A DNA stretch of 12,248 bases from an uncultured Collinsella sp. (GTDB taxonomy: Bacteria; Actinomycetota; Coriobacteriia; Coriobacteriales; Coriobacteriaceae), in assembly GCA_900550595.1 (NCBI GenBank), contig URTB01000026.1, forward strand, positions 1 through 12,248. Direction: 5' to 3'. Under the pieces are notes generated by a model, which saw only the letters and a program-made list of their open reading frames with translations, had not been told where the DNA came from and did no database searches. The first letter of the stretch is position 1, and every line of letters begins with the position of its first letter. The translations under genes and the position numbers were made by a program. Shown here piece by piece: positions 1,694-7,401 of the stretch.

Positions 1694-2440
1694 TTAGAAC
1701 AGGAAGCCGAGGACGATGAGGGCAATGCTGACAATAAGTATGGCAATGTCCAGGCCCTTGATGGGGTAGCGCTTGTACGAGCTCGCGCGCGTGCGCAGGT
1801 AGAAGCCGCGCTGCTCGGCTGCCAGGGCCGTGGCGTCGGTTTTACCCACGCTCGAGATCAGTAGCGGCACGCACAGCGGCAGCATGAGCTTGAGCTTCTT
1901 GATGGGGTTCTTGGTGTCATACTCGATGCCGCGTGCGGTCTGCGCCTCCATGATGGCGTTCATCTCCTGGCCAAACACTGGCACAAAGCGCAGCGCCGTG
2001 GTAAAGGTGAAGGCGTAACGATACGGAACGTGCAGCACCTCGACGCAGGCGTTGGCAAGGTCGTTGAGCTTGGTCACCATGAGCATCAGAATAAGCGGTA
2101 GCGCCACGCCCAGCAGACGCAGACAGGCCTTTGTTCCGGTGATGAGGCCTTCATCGGTGACAAAGCTCCACACCACGTTGCCATCGCGCATAAAAGCCAG
2201 CTGCAGCACCAGCATGATGAGCGCGAGTGGAATCAGCAGCTTGAGCAGCGCGAGCAGGCGGTCGACGACGCCGGCGTAGGCTCCCAGCGCGAGCGTGAGT
2301 GCCAGAAAGCCCAGCAGTGCCACATAGGTGTCGGACAAGAAAATGCCGATGATGATGGCGGCGGCGAGGCCCAGTTTGATGACGGGGTTCAGGCGGTGTA
2401 GCAGCGTGTCGCCCGGCATGTAGTCGATGACGTTAACCAC
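1694..2440 (-). CDS. ecfT: ECF transporter transmembrane component EcfT
   Basis: Membrane coupling subunit of an energy-coupling-factor importer; it links ATP hydrolysis by the ATPase to movement of the substrate-binding S component. The likely start is GTG at 2440-2438: GAGGAG at 2451-2456 lies 10 bases upstream, whereas the ATG at 2485 lies inside the ATPase gene without comparable support. This gives 248 residues. Hydrophobic segments lie at about 21-36, 38-58, 63-83, 108-123 and 229-248. The two cytoplasmic Arg-Gly motifs that contact the ATPases are present: TARG (168-171) and EQRG (209-212). The gene overlaps the ATPase gene by 8 bases, which suggests translational coupling. It is the last gene of the operon and is followed by a terminator. 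Confidence 0.88.
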   Translation of the reverse strand: MVNVIDYMPGDTLLHRLNPVIKLGLAAAIIIGIFLSDTYVALLGFLALTLALGAYAGVVDRLLALLKLLIPLALIMLVLQLAFMRDGNVVWSFVTDEGLITGTKACLRLLGVALPLILMLMVTKLNDLANACVEVLHVPYRYAFTFTTALRFVPVFGQEMNAIMEAQTARGIEYDTKNPIKKLKLMLPLCVPLLISSVGKTDATALAAEQRGFYLRTRASSYKRYPIKGLDIAILIVSIALIVLGFLF

Positions 2441-4184
2441 GGCGGACCATCTCCTCGGTAATGCGAACGATATCAGTGACCTCACTCACCTGCGTAAAGG
2501 CGGGCGAGACGGTGGATGCCAGACGGCGCGAGAGTTCGATGACCTGGGGCGGCTCAACGTAGGCACGCTGCATGAGTTCGATGTTCGAGAACAGCTCGTG
2601 CGTGCGGCCGCGGTCGAGGATGCGACCGTTGGCCATCACCACGATGCGCTCGGCAAAGTCGGAAACGACTTCCATGTCGTGACAGACCATGATGACGGCG
2701 CAACCGCGCTCTGCCATGGTGCGCACCGTTTCCATCACGGTCATGCACTCGCGGTAGTCCAGGCCACTCGTGGGTTCGTCGAGCACCACGATCTTGGGCT
2801 CGATCACCACAACGGAGGCCAGCGCCACCATCTGGCGTTGGCCGCGCGACAGTGAGAACGGTGCCTCGTCGGCGGGCAGACCAAAGCGGTCGATGACCAG
2901 CTGGGCGCGACGCAGGGCTTCGGCGCGGTCGATGCCGGCAAGTTCTAGACCAAAGGCGACCTCGTCGAGCACGGTGTCTTTGCAGATTTGGCGGTCGGGG
3001 TTCTGGAAAAGCGTTGCCACTTCGTGTGCGATGCGGCTCGTGGGAACCGATGCCGTGTCCAAGCCCGTAACGCGTACGCTGCCCGATGCGGGCTTGAGCA
3101 AACCCGTGAGCAGTTTGGTGAGCGTGGTTTTGCCGGCTCCGTTTTGGCCGACAATGCCCACGAGCTCGCCGGGGTAGAGCGTCAAGTTGAGGTCGTGGAC
3201 GGCGGCGCCTCCATGGGGGTAAGAAAACTCGACATGGTCAAAGGTGAGCACCGGCTCGGCGTCTTTCGCATGCGGGCGCAGCGACGGCGCGTGCGGGGAG
3301 CCTGCGGGCGCCTGGGTATCGCTTGTCGCACGGTCGGGGTCGACGATTTCCGTGATCAGGCGTTCTGCCTCGTCGACATCCAGACAGGGCGTGCCGCTTA
3401 CCAAGCCATCGGCCTCGAGACTGTTGAAGATGCGCGTGACGCGCGGACAATCGACGCCGATGGTGCGAAGCTCGTCGGTGCGTGCGAAGACCTCGTGCGG
3501 CTCACCTTGCAGCGCGATCTGGCCGTGATCGAGCACCAACACACGGTTGCAGTACTCCGAAAGCAGAGCGACCTTTTGCTCAACGACGACGATGGTGATG
3601 CCGAGCGCGCGGTTTGCCTCGCGCAGCGTCTCGAAGACCAAGGTGGAACTGGCGGGGTCGAGTGCTGCGGTTGGCTCATCGAGCACTAAGACGCGCGGAC
3701 GCATGGCGAGGATGGCGGCGATAGCTACCTTTTGCTTTTGGCCGCCCGAGAGGGTGGCGATCTCGCGGTCGCGCAGGTCGCTAATGCCGACGGTCTTAAG
3801 CGTCTCGCACAAGCGCTGCTCGATCTGGTCATGCGGAACGCCAAAGTTCTCGAGACCAAAGAGCATTTCGTCCTCAACGACCGAAGCGACCATCTGGGTA
3901 TCGATGTCCTGCAACACGCTGCCGACGATCTGCGATATGTCGGTGAGCGAGACCTCGCAGGTGTCGTGGCCGTCAACTAACACGGAGCCATAAAATGCGC
4001 CGGTGTAGTGGTGAGGCACGGCGCCCGACAGGCAGGCGGCAAGTGTGGACTTACCGGCACCCGAGGGCCCGATGATGCCGATGAAATCTCCCTTGTTCAC
4101 GCTAAGCGAAACGTGGCTGAGCGCCTGCTCGGTTTGCGTGCCATAGGAGAACGAGACATCGTCGACGTTGATGATCGTTTCCAT
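2433..4184 (-). CDS. fused double ECF ATPase (EcfA1-EcfA2 type)
   Basis: Cytoplasmic ATPase of the ECF transporter, with both nucleotide-binding domains in one 583-residue chain instead of two proteins. Domain 1: Walker A GPSGAGKS (39-46), Q-loop Gln92, signature LSGGQ (145-149), Walker B ending in Glu170. Domain 2: Walker A GQNGAGKT (346-353), Q-loop Gln394, signature LSRGQ (445-449), Walker B ending in Glu470, switch His502. A low-complexity linker of roughly residues 285-310 joins them. In domain 1 the switch-histidine position appears to be Gln203 (VVVEQK), so the two sites are unequal. The start ATG at 4184 has GAAAGG 5 bases upstream. It lies after the S-component gene, separated by two palindromic elements, and overlaps ecfT at its end. 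Fused pairs are known among ECF systems (YkoD-like). Confidence 0.92.
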   Translation of the reverse strand: METIINVDDVSFSYGTQTEQALSHVSLSVNKGDFIGIIGPSGAGKSTLAACLSGAVPHHYTGAFYGSVLVDGHDTCEVSLTDISQIVGSVLQDIDTQMVASVVEDEMLFGLENFGVPHDQIEQRLCETLKTVGISDLRDREIATLSGGQKQKVAIAAILAMRPRVLVLDEPTAALDPASSTLVFETLREANRALGITIVVVEQKVALLSEYCNRVLVLDHGQIALQGEPHEVFARTDELRTIGVDCPRVTRIFNSLEADGLVSGTPCLDVDEAERLITEIVDPDRATSDTQAPAGSPHAPSLRPHAKDAEPVLTFDHVEFSYPHGGAAVHDLNLTLYPGELVGIVGQNGAGKTTLTKLLTGLLKPASGSVRVTGLDTASVPTSRIAHEVATLFQNPDRQICKDTVLDEVAFGLELAGIDRAEALRRAQLVIDRFGLPADEAPFSLSRGQRQMVALASVVVIEPKIVVLDEPTSGLDYRECMTVMETVRTMAERGCAVIMVCHDMEVVSDFAERIVVMANGRILDRGRTHELFSNIELMQRAYVEPPQVIELSRRLASTVSPAFTQVSEVTDIVRITEEMVRRG

Positions 4185-4396: not shown

Positions 4397-4972
4397 TTAG
4401 TTGAGCTTCAGGGCCTTCTGGATGGGCAGGTAGAGGGCGCCGACCAGAATGGCGTTAAATACGGCGGTCATGGCGACGACGGGTAGCATGGCTGCGGCGA
4501 GCTCGCCCACCACGCCGAGCATGGCCATCTTGATGACCATGAAGATGACGCCCGAGACAAAGGTGGTCACGAATGTTGCGACGATGGCGACGACGGGCTT
4601 AACCTGGCCGTCCTTGGCGGCGGCGTTGACAATGACGGCCATGAGCATGGCTGCGATACCCTCGGCGGCAAAATCGACAAACGGCGAGGTGGTAGTGATC
4701 TGGATTACGGCCGCCGAGATGAGACCAATGACGAGCGCCTGGCCAATGTTGGGACGAATGACCAGGATGGTGAGGCAGAAGGCCGAGATAATGAACTCGG
4801 GGCTGATCATACCGCCCGAGATGCCCGAGATTGCCTTGCCGACGGTGAAGTTGAGGATGAAGCCGGCGGCAAGCAGAATGGCGAGCAGGACAAGGGCGCG
4901 AATATCGAGTTTACCGCGGTCGGCGGTCTGGACGGTGCGGGGCTGGGCGGTGGCGGTGGTGTTCTGAGACAT
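4397..4972 (-). CDS. ECF transporter S component, probable tryptophan specificity (TrpP-like)
   Basis: Integral membrane substrate-capturing subunit of the ECF transporter. The start is ATG at 4972: AAAGGA lies 8 bases upstream. The frame stays open upstream, but that extension crosses the attenuator and is not protein-like. The protein has 191 residues: a polar N terminus of about 24 residues, then about six hydrophobic segments near 24-47, 56-73, 76-93, 104-118, 126-150 and 160-182. S components differ greatly in sequence, so the family was judged by length, topology and motifs such as PNIGQALVIGLISA and VVAMTAVFNAILVGALYLPIQKAL, which recall TrpP proteins. The strongest pointer to tryptophan is upstream: a leader peptide with three Trp codons and an attenuator-type terminator. 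The S role is fairly sure; Trp as ligand is an inference from regulation plus resemblance. Confidence 0.82.
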   Translation of the reverse strand: MSQNTTATAQPRTVQTADRGKLDIRALVLLAILLAAGFILNFTVGKAISGISGGMISPEFIISAFCLTILVIRPNIGQALVIGLISAAVIQITTTSPFVDFAAEGIAAMLMAVIVNAAAKDGQVKPVVAIVATFVTTFVSGVIFMVIKMAMLGVVGELAAAMLPVVAMTAVFNAILVGALYLPIQKALKLN

Positions 4973-5019
4973 GGTGAAAGTCCTTTCAAAAAGGGGAGTG
5001 TAAGAGAAAAACGGAGGCG

Positions 5020-5146
5020 CGTGATGCGAATGCGATCGGGCTCGAGATAGAAAAAGGCCCCCGGTCGAAACCGGAGGCCTTCCAATCACCTAGAGCGCAA
5101 AACAGGCGTGAGGGACTCACTTTCGACCGATCGTATTCGCATCACG
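5020..5146 (-). repeat. 20-base inverted repeat enclosing the attenuator terminator
   Basis: Bases 5020-5039 and 5127-5146 are inverted copies with 19 of 20 positions complementary (one A/C mismatch in RNA). The right copy lies inside the leader peptide coding sequence, just after the Trp codons; the left copy lies between the terminator and the S-component start. In a read-through transcript the two could form a long stem around the terminator hairpin. Confidence 0.75.
5051..5081 (-). terminator. attenuator terminator of the tryptophan ECF operon
   Basis: On the - strand, 5081-5071 pairs with 5064-5054 in an 11-pair GC-rich stem (one G-U pair) with a 6-base loop, followed by a run of five T at 5055-5051. 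It lies between the leader peptide stop codon and the S-component gene, so it would stop transcription before the structural genes. Bases 5062-5070 (loop and 3' arm) are complementary to 5121-5129 in the leader peptide gene, giving an antiterminator. Confidence 0.85.
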
Positions 5147-5185
5147 CCACCACCAGTTGTTGAGAGACTTCATCGTGTTCATCAT
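5117..5185 (-). CDS. tryptophan attenuation leader peptide (22 aa, WWW)
   Basis: A short gene starting at ATG 5185 with AAAGGAG (5200-5194) 8 bases upstream, and ending with TGA at 5119-5117. The peptide begins MMNTMKSLNN, then has three consecutive Trp (codons at 5155-5147), and ends RDANTIGRK. Three TGG codons in 22 are far above expectation, because Trp is rare. The peptide itself is probably not functional; its translation senses charged tRNA-Trp. When Trp is scarce the ribosome stalls on the Trp codons and leaves 5129-5121 free to pair with 5070-5062, which breaks the terminator. When Trp is plentiful the ribosome moves on to the stop codon, covers 5129-5121, and the terminator forms. 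Known trpL-type attenuators work this way; their use for a transporter here is inferred. Confidence 0.88.
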   Translation of the reverse strand: MMNTMKSLNNWWWRDANTIGRK

Positions 5186-5237
5186 CTTGGTGGCTCCTTT
5201 CGTGATGCCTTGGCGCGGTCGCACCTCGTTGCTGTTG

Positions 5238-5257
5238 CGCTGCACTATAGCACAGCG
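5238..5257 (-). promoter_or_regulatory. probable promoter (extended -10) of the leader/ECF operon within a palindrome
   Basis: On the - strand TGCTATAGT (5252-5244) is a good extended -10 element; no convincing -35 lies 16-19 bases upstream. The -10 is embedded in an imperfect palindrome, CGCTG-tg-CTATAG-tg-CAGCG (16 of 20 positions symmetric), which could be an operator for a dimeric repressor. The leader SD lies about 45 bases downstream. Confidence 0.5.
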
Positions 5258-5379: not shown

Positions 5380-7179
5380 TTAGGCCTTCTTGCGACGATA
5401 AAGCACGAAGCCGCAGACACCGATGATGACGACGGCGCCAACGGCCATGGCGGCCATGTTGTTGCCCTCGGACTTCTCCTCGGTCGCCTCTTCCTCAGCC
5501 TCGGGCTCGGCAACGTCCTTATCGGAGAGAGCCTCGTCGGCGTAGGTGATGGACTCGACCAGGCAGTCGTTGTCGGCATCGTAGTCACTCGGGACGAACT
5601 CCTCGGAGAAATCGCCCTCCTTGAGGTAGTCGCGCATCTCCTCGAGCATGGCCTTGCACTTGACGTAGGTGTTCTTGGTCGCTGCCTTGCCGGTCTTGTT
5701 GGCCAGGGCAGTGCGGGCCTCGGTGTCCTCGGCGGCCTGCATGGCCTCGTCGACGGTTAGGTTCTGCTCGATGAGCTCCTTCTGCAGGGCGTCGAGATAG
5801 GCGCGGACGCCGGTGGCGCAGCTGTCGCGGTTCTCATAGGCGAGCGTGTTGATGTCCATGAGGACGTAGTTGATGGAGTTCTTGGGCTCCTCGTTGTTCA
5901 CGACGTCTTCCTCTTCACAGTGATCGAAGGAGACATCCTGATCGCTGAAGTAGGGGCTGACCTCGGTGAGCAGTGCGGAATAGAGGGGGATAGCGACGGA
6001 GAACTCGGCGTTGGAGAGCATCTCCCACTGGATGGTCGCGATTTCGGGGTCCATGCCGTGACGGATCTGGAAGGTGTGGATCTCGGTGTTGCGGTTGGAG
6101 CCGATGGCATAGGCGCCGTCGGTGTTGGCGTTGAGGCCGGCGACATTCTCGCCGCGAGCGGCGAAGGAACGAATCATCTCAAAGGTGTTCCAGTCGGACT
6201 TGCCGGGCTGGAAGAACAGCGGCTGCATCTCGTGGACCAGGGCGCCGGTCGTCGCACGAGCGTCTTCGCGCTCGTCCTTGACGATCTCATAGTCGGTGCC
6301 CTCAGCAAGCGGAGCCATGAAGTAATCGCGGCCCTGGACATAGCGCGACCACTGGTGCATACCGGCCTCGCTAATCTCCTCGCCGTAGGTCTTGGCGACG
6401 TCGAACTTGCCGTCGGTGTACTCGGCAAAGCCCTTCTCCTTAGGCATGGACTCGATGCCCTCGGAGTGGAGGCAGTTCTCGGTGTCGTCGAGGTCGACGT
6501 CATAGGTGAGGTTGCCGATGTTGGGGTTGAGTGAGGCAATATCGTCGGTGAGCCTCATAGCGATCCACTGGTGGCCGGAAAGCGCTGCAAACAACCAGGT
6601 CTCGTTGTTGTCGGCAATGATGATCTGGTCGTTGGAGCAGACGCCCTGCTCGTCAATCAGGCTGCCGAGGAGCTCGACACCCTCGCGGGCCGTGGCGCTC
6701 TCGCCCAGAATAACGCTGGCGTAGTTGTACTCGCCGATGCCGGTCTCCTCGGTGACGGGGTCGGCTTCCTCTGCCTTCTCGTTATAGGAGGTGCTCAGCG
6801 TGGCAGAGCAGGAAACGCCCTTTTCGTTGATGCCAGCCTCGGAATATGCGTCGTAACGATCTTCCCACTGAGAGGGGTTGTCGCGAACGAAGGTGTAGCG
6901 GTAGGTTGCGCCCTTGGACTTGTACTCAAAGCCGGACTCGACCGAGGTGTACTTGCTGCCGTCCTTGTGTGCGGGCTCGATGCCAAAGTGCTTGATGTAG
7001 CGCGGGCCGAAGTCCTCGGAGCGTCCGTAGTACGTGTTGCCGTCTGCCGTGAGCTGGCTGCCCATGTAGATCTGGGTGCAAGCGAGCGCCGAAGTCGGCA
7101 TGGCCATAATGGCCGCTGCTCCAAATGCAAGGCCGCAGCCGAGCTTCTTGAGCGTGTTGACAGGATGAGTAAACCTCAT
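5380..7179 (-). CDS. C69 family dipeptidase, secreted and membrane-anchored
   Basis: A 599-residue peptidase of the N-terminal nucleophile fold (family C69, PepD-like), likely releasing amino acids from short peptides at the cell surface. The start is ATG 7179, with GGGAGGG 3 bases upstream. Residues 1-33 form a signal peptide (basic start, hydrophobic core, TSALA), so cleavage exposes Cys34, the expected catalytic N-terminal nucleophile. Family motifs follow: RSEDFG (53-58), DNNETWLF, GHQWIAMRLTDD, and IQWEMLSNAEFSVAIPLYSAL. The C terminus has an acidic Glu-rich linker, a single hydrophobic span (about 575-594) and YRRKKA, a membrane anchor without an LPxTG signal. Typical intracellular C69 enzymes are shorter (about 470 residues), so the extra length is mostly anchor and stalk. 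An alternative reading of the signal as a lipoprotein box is less likely. It lies upstream of, and in the same direction as, the tryptophan transporter, but with its own intergenic signals. Confidence 0.9.
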   Translation of the reverse strand: MRFTHPVNTLKKLGCGLAFGAAAIMAMPTSALACTQIYMGSQLTADGNTYYGRSEDFGPRYIKHFGIEPAHKDGSKYTSVESGFEYKSKGATYRYTFVRDNPSQWEDRYDAYSEAGINEKGVSCSATLSTSYNEKAEEADPVTEETGIGEYNYASVILGESATAREGVELLGSLIDEQGVCSNDQIIIADNNETWLFAALSGHQWIAMRLTDDIASLNPNIGNLTYDVDLDDTENCLHSEGIESMPKEKGFAEYTDGKFDVAKTYGEEISEAGMHQWSRYVQGRDYFMAPLAEGTDYEIVKDEREDARATTGALVHEMQPLFFQPGKSDWNTFEMIRSFAARGENVAGLNANTDGAYAIGSNRNTEIHTFQIRHGMDPEIATIQWEMLSNAEFSVAIPLYSALLTEVSPYFSDQDVSFDHCEEEDVVNNEEPKNSINYVLMDINTLAYENRDSCATGVRAYLDALQKELIEQNLTVDEAMQAAEDTEARTALANKTGKAATKNTYVKCKAMLEEMRDYLKEGDFSEEFVPSDYDADNDCLVESITYADEALSDKDVAEPEAEEEATEEKSEGNNMAAMAVGAVVIIGVCGFVLYRRKKA

Positions 7180-7180
7180 G

Positions 7181-7401
7181 ATCCCTCCCAACTGTTGAAA
7201 CCCCGCGAAACCGTACGGAGTTTCAGCTAATAAATACATCTACTAGCCTAAAGGAAGTGTAAAGAGTATTCATTCGACAACAGCTTTTACTCGATGAGCG
7301 TGAAGAAATATACGATGAGCGGATAATAATACTCATTTTATTGCTTTAGTTAAATAAAGGCACCCTGCATTTACTGTAGCTGAACAAAGCGCCAGACAAT
7401 G
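7181..7401. other. AT-rich upstream region of the dipeptidase gene
   Basis: Together with the adjoining terminator, this is a gene-free stretch of about 300 bases between the 30-codon gene and the dipeptidase, clearly more AT-rich than its surroundings. It holds the dipeptidase ribosome binding site (7183-7189) and two direct copies of CGATGAGCG (7292-7300 and 7313-7321) exactly 21 bases apart, which could be binding sites on one face of the helix. On the - strand TTTACA occurs near 7260, but no well-spaced -10 is convincing. I found no short ORF with a ribosome binding site. Confidence 0.4.

Follow-up and report, generated by a model that had tools for sequence, protein, structure and literature searches.

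A probable trp-type leader-peptide attenuator in front of a predicted tryptophan ECF importer operon in Collinsella and related Coriobacteriia

The window analyzed here, a stretch of 12,248 nucleotides from an uncultured Collinsella sp., carries on its minus strand what is very probably a trp-type, ribosome-mediated transcription attenuator that controls a tryptophan importer operon. The core of the element would work as, and is best classed as, a trp attenuator, because all of the defining features that could be tested are present, and the version in the window carries one further arm that is conserved. The assignment is built on the parts of the element, their spacing, their pairings, their conservation and a simulated switch, from which we infer that read-through responds to tryptophan in vivo.

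An earlier note on this DNA had described an attenuator at 5051-5185, comprising a 22-codon ORF with a strong ribosome binding site, three TGG codons and a terminator before the S-component gene, and all of these parts were found, at the coordinates given there, on the minus strand. The leader peptide ORF (5117-5185, minus strand; 22 codons plus TGA; MMNTMKSLNNWWWRDANTIGRK), homologs of which were identified by comparison, is preceded by the Shine-Dalgarno sequence AAAGGAG (5194-5200, minus strand), with the ATG 8 nt downstream, and reading of the sequence places three adjacent regulatory TGG codons at 5147-5155 (minus strand). At the sequence level, this is the short ORF with tandem tryptophan codons expected of a trp attenuator. 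The whole unit exceeds 5051-5185, with an additional arm, segment 5, which that note does not describe, at 5012-5031 and an extended -10 promoter-like element, TGC-TATAGT (TGCTATAGT), at 5244-5252 (minus strand), between the leader and the end of the upstream peptidase gene at 5380. The promoter-like element has no recognizable -35 sequence, and a sigma-70 scan gave no match for it; CTATAGT is visible 5' of several homologous leaders. A search of the window with every family of Rfam release 15, including the T-box, returned no match at the gathering score. Just 5' of the leader ribosome site, GCATCACG (5201-5208) is complementary to CGTGATGC (5139-5146), which follows the Trp run; no such complementarity was seen in more distant homologs.

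Scanning GTDB species genomes for the S component yielded 62 named loci, 60 of which have a leader with three consecutive tryptophan residues (WWW) 5' of the S component. The two loci without it are L054, whose upstream sequence is only 27 nt long, and L060, where the match starts at residue 29. The latter, from the Lachnospiraceae MAG RUG14439, is an S-component fragment near a contig end with an unrelated reading frame 5' of it, and the contig is perhaps chimeric. When the window and the loci of further relatives were included, the leader was present in 111 of 133 records; these records overlap between collections, and 53 are distinct at 93% identity. The distance from the Trp run to the stop codon is exactly 27 nt in 107 of the 111 leader records (the exceptions are L106, L107, L116 and L129). 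Residues around the run are also conserved, as NWWW and as GR or GQ toward the end of the peptide, and one leader (L097) has WAW in place of WWW. The locus labeled Slackia isoflavoniconvertens (L021) encodes an S component 78% identical to that of the window and has a Collinsella-type leader with segment 5, which we read as a transfer or a wrong label.

A search of all column pairs of the alignment recovered three competing helices, 1:2, 2:3 and 3:4; the alignments A1 and A2 hold 52 and 53 of the 111 leader records, respectively, after filtering at 93% identity, and L116 is absent from A1. The protector hairpin 1:2 is formed in the window by GGCGTGA (5142-5148, minus strand), spanning the end of the Trp run and the next codons, and TCACGCC (5105-5111, minus strand), 3' of the stop codon. 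In the alignment, the end of the Trp run likewise pairs with TCRCGCC 3' of the stop, with 81.2% of cells paired and changes on both sides in 5 of 7 pairs. The intrinsic terminator 3:4 and its U-tract (5051-5081, minus strand; 12-nt arms, 92% complementary, with a 4-nt loop and then TTTTT) lie between the leader ORF and the structural gene. Here 97.2% of cells are paired, both-side changes occur in 8 of 11 pairs and, for four of five covariation measures, 0 of 500 shuffles matched the real alignment. The antiterminator 2:3 pairs the last codons of the leader (CGGTCGAAA, 5121-5129, minus strand) with the terminator loop and the start of the terminator 3' arm (TTTCGACCG, 5062-5070, minus strand), and in the alignment CGGTCGA, in the codons before the stop, pairs with the same region. 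On A1, 87.5% of 2:3 cells are paired, compared with 86.9% in shuffles, both-side changes occur in 2 of 8 pairs, and the shuffles are clearly beaten by only one of the five covariation measures, the number of cells changed on both sides (12 cells; 0/500); most of the measures fail because the 2:3 arm is nearly invariant. Beyond A1, L116 forms the pairing from different letters (CGGATTA and TAATCCG), and it is rebuilt in leaders that precede TrpB-like and sodium symporter genes, in some of them with other letters, as in L170 (TCTCGGATTA/TAGTCCGAGG). In single-sequence folding, the bare attenuator is unremarkable (z = -0.73), and z is -3.88 when segment 5 is included.

These pairings suggest how the switch would operate. 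In a cell short of charged tRNA-Trp, translation would stall at the three TGG codons with the ribosome covering segment 1, leaving segment 2 (CGGTCGA) free to pair with the emerging terminator loop and the first bases of the 3' arm, and transcription would read through into the S-A-A-T genes. With sufficient tryptophan, the ribosome would reach the stop codon 27 nt further on and cover segment 2, whereupon 3:4 would form and transcription would end. Without translation, 1:2 would compete with 2:3.

We simulated growing transcripts of the 53 distinct loci, with half of the terminator 3' arm emerged and the position of the ribosome varied, and used E. coli trpL as the control for growing-transcript folding. 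In emerging transcripts with the ribosome stalled on the last Trp codon, the mean value was 0.05 for the terminator and 0.72 for the upstream pairing; with the ribosome at the stop codon, the values were 0.87 and 0.16. The emerging transcript was ambiguous without a ribosome (terminator 0.58, upstream pairing 0.35). The difference between states exceeded 0.2 for the upstream pairing in 52 of 53 loci and for the terminator in 50 of 53; L048 failed on both, and L037 and L101 failed on the terminator alone. The E. coli trpL control gave the same order of states. Shuffling of the segment 2 stretch reduced the mean difference to 0.06, compared with a real value of 0.56 (lowest real value, 0.11), and only 7 of 265 such shuffles reached the real value. 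In contrast, the switch was not seen in equilibrium folding of the full leader with ribosome footprints, where the terminator won in nearly all states and was still at 0.5 or more in 48 to 49 of the 53 loci with the ribosome stalled at Trp. The terminator likewise won in the finished E. coli trpL leader at equilibrium. A mutually exclusive antiterminator is therefore computed for emerging transcripts and not at equilibrium. Because the terminator wins at equilibrium, in E. coli trpL as well, the switch requires co-transcriptional timing, and therefore probably a ribosome that is coupled to the polymerase. Comparison and folding, which show the codon run to be conserved, its distance from the stop to be nearly fixed, and the terminator and both alternative helices to be present, uphold the earlier reading of this element as a Trp attenuator.

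Two other explanations of these observations were considered. The hairpin could be the ordinary terminator of the upstream transcript, the short ORF being incidental and the importer promoter lying further down. The strength of the hairpin, which wins at equilibrium whatever the ribosome does, would suit such a role, as would the unexceptional stability of the bare attenuator for its composition and the terminator-like match without a leader in the genomes G175 and G163. However, the ORF is conserved with its 27-nt spacing in 107 of 111 records and with a covarying 1:2 helix, the computed pairing depends on the ribosome in 52 of 53 loci, and the promoter-like element stands between the end of the peptidase gene at 5380 and the leader; we regard this explanation as highly unlikely. 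It is also extremely unlikely that the signal is free tryptophan, acting with the nascent leader peptide as in TnaC or through a protein as in TRAP, rather than uncharged tRNA. The targets of tnaCAB include a transporter, as do those of the leaders studied here, and the conserved residues around WWW (NWWW; GR or GQ near the end) might be those of an arrest peptide, but the GR codons are accounted for by the 2:3 arm CGGTCGA. Moreover, the WAW of L097 and the several TrpB-like and symporter leaders that end soon after WWW are unlike a fixed arrest peptide, and a ribosome that stalls at the Trp codons would account for both the distance to the stop and the alternative helices.

Downstream of the attenuator are the genes that the earlier note had recognized as an ECF transporter. 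These encode a TrpP-like ECF S component of 191 aa (4397-4972, minus strand; Pfam PF17099, E = 2.4e-5), a double ECF ATPase of 583 aa (2433-4184, minus strand; TIGR04520, 458 bits against a cut-off of 315) and an ECF T component of the CbiQ family (1694-2485, minus strand; PF02361, 92.8 bits). The S, double A and T genes are adjacent, as expected of an ECF transporter that has dedicated A and T components. The match of the window S component to PF17099 is nearly full length and, at 24.6 bits, lies below the gathering score of 27.2; the TrpP family was matched at E = 1e-3 or better by 10 of 15 homologs of the S component (best, 5.1e-9). Its best named matches are from uncultured Collinsella, at 98% identity, and the source names of its homologs, present in 3 of 120 rows, are "hypothetical protein" only. 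A search of solved structures with the S-component profile gave no match at E = 0.1. The prediction of tryptophan as the substrate is backed by the TrpP matches of the homologs and by the missing trpE and trpB genes described below, and on this sequence evidence tryptophan is the probable substrate. The upstream gene (5380-7185, minus strand) encodes a peptidase of the C69 family that has a hydrophobic stretch, and after it YRRKKA, at its C terminus, and may be a source of peptides adjoining an amino acid importer. On the plus strand, positions 3-1568 hold an ORF without a Pfam or NCBIfam match (3-737), followed by an aspartate/glutamate racemase-type gene. In 21 of the 127 relatives with an S component, a second S component, 43 to 51% identical, adjoins the first (for example, G040:C67:41536-42075 and G154:C1:290789-291325).

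Matches of the leader model R1 showed that similar leaders precede other genes. One such target is a stand-alone TrpB-like gene (L170 to L176, L122 and L124), identified in L172 by NF009057/TIGR01415 and in the others by position beside weak trpB matches and by similar starts. Another is a sodium-dependent transporter (L118 and L167 to L169), the L118 protein matching NF037979 and the remainder being assigned by likeness; this transporter presumably carries tryptophan, as TnaT does. Several of the TrpB-like and symporter leaders stop 9 to 15 nt past WWW. Weak R1 matches near E = 1e-3 in L177, L178, L179, L181 and L186 were counted as false because in each of these loci at least one match covers part of a tRNA-Ala gene in the same orientation; further weak matches lie in L180 and L182 to L185. 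Matches to trpE were found in 59 of 197 genomes and trpB above the cut-off in 38 of 197, and within f1, the family of Collinsella, both were confined to G002. For the other 64 of the 65 f1 genomes, some of which are incomplete, the absence of trpE matches and of trpB above the cut-off therefore predicts tryptophan auxotrophy. A T-box lies just 5' of trpE in G002, G154, G163 and G175.

The S component was found in 127 of the 197 relatives. The earlier note had proposed that its reading would fall if homologous loci kept the transporter and lost the codons and terminator, and this was mostly not so: in a tally made by reading listings rather than by script, 93 of the 127 have the leader and 31 have a T-box. 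In G163 and G175 the S component lacks a leader and a partial model match covers the terminator only; G105, on a short contig, fell into no class. In both G175 (L108) and G163 (L109), trpE and trpB genes are present with a T-box before trpE, and the importer has a terminator-like hairpin and no leader. The 93 leader genomes comprise 63 of f1 (the family of the Collinsella-like genomes), 25 of f5, 2 of f2, 1 of f3 and 2 of f7, and they include G017, counted once with its leader and S component at different contig ends; G071 and G096, where the leader precedes a TrpB-like gene that in turn lies 5' of the S component; and G034 and some other genomes, called from the model match alone. The 31 T-box genomes comprise 27 of f2, 2 of f7, 1 of f10 and 1 of f6; f2 appears to be Eggerthellaceae and f5 Atopobiaceae. 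The T-box matches score 56 to 82 bits, below the Rfam gathering score of 93 (RF00230), and GGTGGYACCGC is present in all 22 of the 31 that were read. Seven T-box loci (L111, L112, L114, L115, L117, L120 and L194) have AGTATCTGGACC, which holds TGG, and two (L119 and L130) have AGTATCCGGACC. T-box control, which the earlier note had associated with Firmicutes, occurs within the same order as leader control.

Segment 5 (ATTCGCATCACGCGCCTCCG, 5012-5031, minus strand), a post-terminator arm, is antisense to segment 1 (5135-5155, minus strand), which consists of the Trp run and the next four codons, and the complementarity continues to 5039. Against dinucleotide shuffles, the 1:5 duplex has a z of -5.4 in the window and -4.8 in both L055 and L118, the last of which has segment 5 in different letters and an S component 34% identical. 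A z of -2.6 or lower was obtained for 10 of the 53 distinct loci, and none of the Olsenella-type loci fell below -2.2 (L083). The alignment A3 has 18 rows, chosen for complementarity from the 62 records in which 9 or more of 10 positions pair to segment 1. In it, 91.8% of 1:5 cells pair and both-side changes occur in 8 of 19 pairs; near-duplicates and L105, taken for a chance match, were left out. RNAalifold predicts the 1:5 helix on A3 unprompted. These compensatory changes suggest that segment 5 is a conserved extra arm in the Collinsella group. No significant segment 5 was found at the 13 TrpB-like and symporter leaders, the best of which was L167 (a run of 12 to 13 pairs; z = -1.8; 17/300 shuffles).

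In the Collinsella group, segment 5 of the read-through RNA would close over the Trp codons. In simulations, the unpaired value of the Trp region changed from 0.24 before to 0.11 after read-through at loci with segment 5, compared with 0.28 and 0.26 at loci without it. Control of S-component translation by segment 5 was rejected, as access to the ribosome site was unchanged (0.44 free and 0.44 stalled) in the 17 loci with segment 5; this simulation also covered 32 loci without it, and 4 of the 53 were dropped for want of a start codon with a ribosome site. Our preferred, though weaker, reading is that segment 5 acts after read-through as a lid that shuts the leader ORF of the mature mRNA; it might also serve as a second checkpoint or be processed by RNase III. 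We tentatively raise, as a possible but doubtful extension, a five-segment attenuator with one sensor and two decisions, in which, after read-through, the arm covers the Trp codons if no starved ribosome is still on them, within a scheme where many Coriobacteriia scavenge tryptophan (TrpP-ECF, TrpB-like protein and sodium symporter) through ribosome attenuators and trpE is behind a T-box in the four genomes compared. If so, the sensor ORF would be shut, or leaked transcripts would be cut or silenced, once tryptophan returns. There is also a substantial chance, if short of an even one, that selection does not act on segment 5 as RNA. The arm would then be either a remnant inverted repeat whose two copies stay similar through template switching or an operator in the DNA. 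An unbiased 14-mer scan of all 53 loci reached p ≤ 0.01 in only 5, which agrees with such an origin, as do the choice of A3 rows for complementarity and the lack of low z values among Olsenella-type loci. Against it stand the duplex energies of the window, L055 and L118, the both-side changes and the unprompted helix. Copying by template switching would have erased the wobble pairs that persist in A3 (U4-G199 in 10 of 18 rows and U10-G193 in 16 of 18), and a DNA operator is at odds with the variable distance, from 98 to 169 nt, that separates segment 5 and the Trp run.

Tryptophan in the gut is a contested nutrient between host and microbes. Collinsella and its kin, themselves predicted to be unable to make tryptophan, are nevertheless predicted to detect a shortage of it by way of translation. 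The attenuator also names a likely substrate for an importer whose homologs, in the few rows that give a source name, are annotated as hypothetical. A natural experiment is offered by the homologous operon, which has a leader peptide in some families and a T-box in others. Segment 5 poses the question of what attenuator leaders do after read-through.

T-boxes bind uncharged tRNA directly. Like the T-box (RF00230), which is found 5' of the homologous S component in 31 of 127 relatives, the attenuator of the window would sense amino acid supply; unlike it, the attenuator has a leader peptide. The earlier note had called this arrangement unusual and perhaps undescribed; our literature search likewise found no leader-peptide attenuation of a TrpP/ECF importer and no trp attenuators of Coriobacteriia. 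PMC4833913 cites Korolev 2015, which deals with actinobacterial Trp attenuators, and Lopatovskaya 2010, two works that may list leaders of Coriobacteriia and so bear on priority; it also gives a predicted leader control of the permease gene lysQ in Lactococcus lactis. As in the hisS T-box/leader-peptide switches, one target gene is found under either sensor (PMC2965389), and as with the NSS transporter under a Trp T-box, a Trp importer is under RNA control (PMC2494555); TrpP-ECF and Coriobacteriia are not reported in the portions of these two sources consulted. In the LEU element of actinobacterial leuA, as described in the part of PMC1262725 consulted, a regulatory codon run also pairs with a downstream segment, but its partner is the leuA Shine-Dalgarno box, which segment 5 is not. 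According to the same part of that source, the trp attenuators of E. coli (trpL), Corynebacterium and Streptomyces share with the window the leader ORF with tandem UGG codons, the alternative helices and the U-tract terminator. Those known attenuators precede biosynthetic operons or trpS, whereas that of the window precedes an importer. Unlike the trpL type as described there, its 2:3 helix uses the terminator loop and 3' arm, and one group has segment 5. The importer as a target and the extra arm, for which we found no report, therefore appear to be the new features of an otherwise classical trp attenuator.
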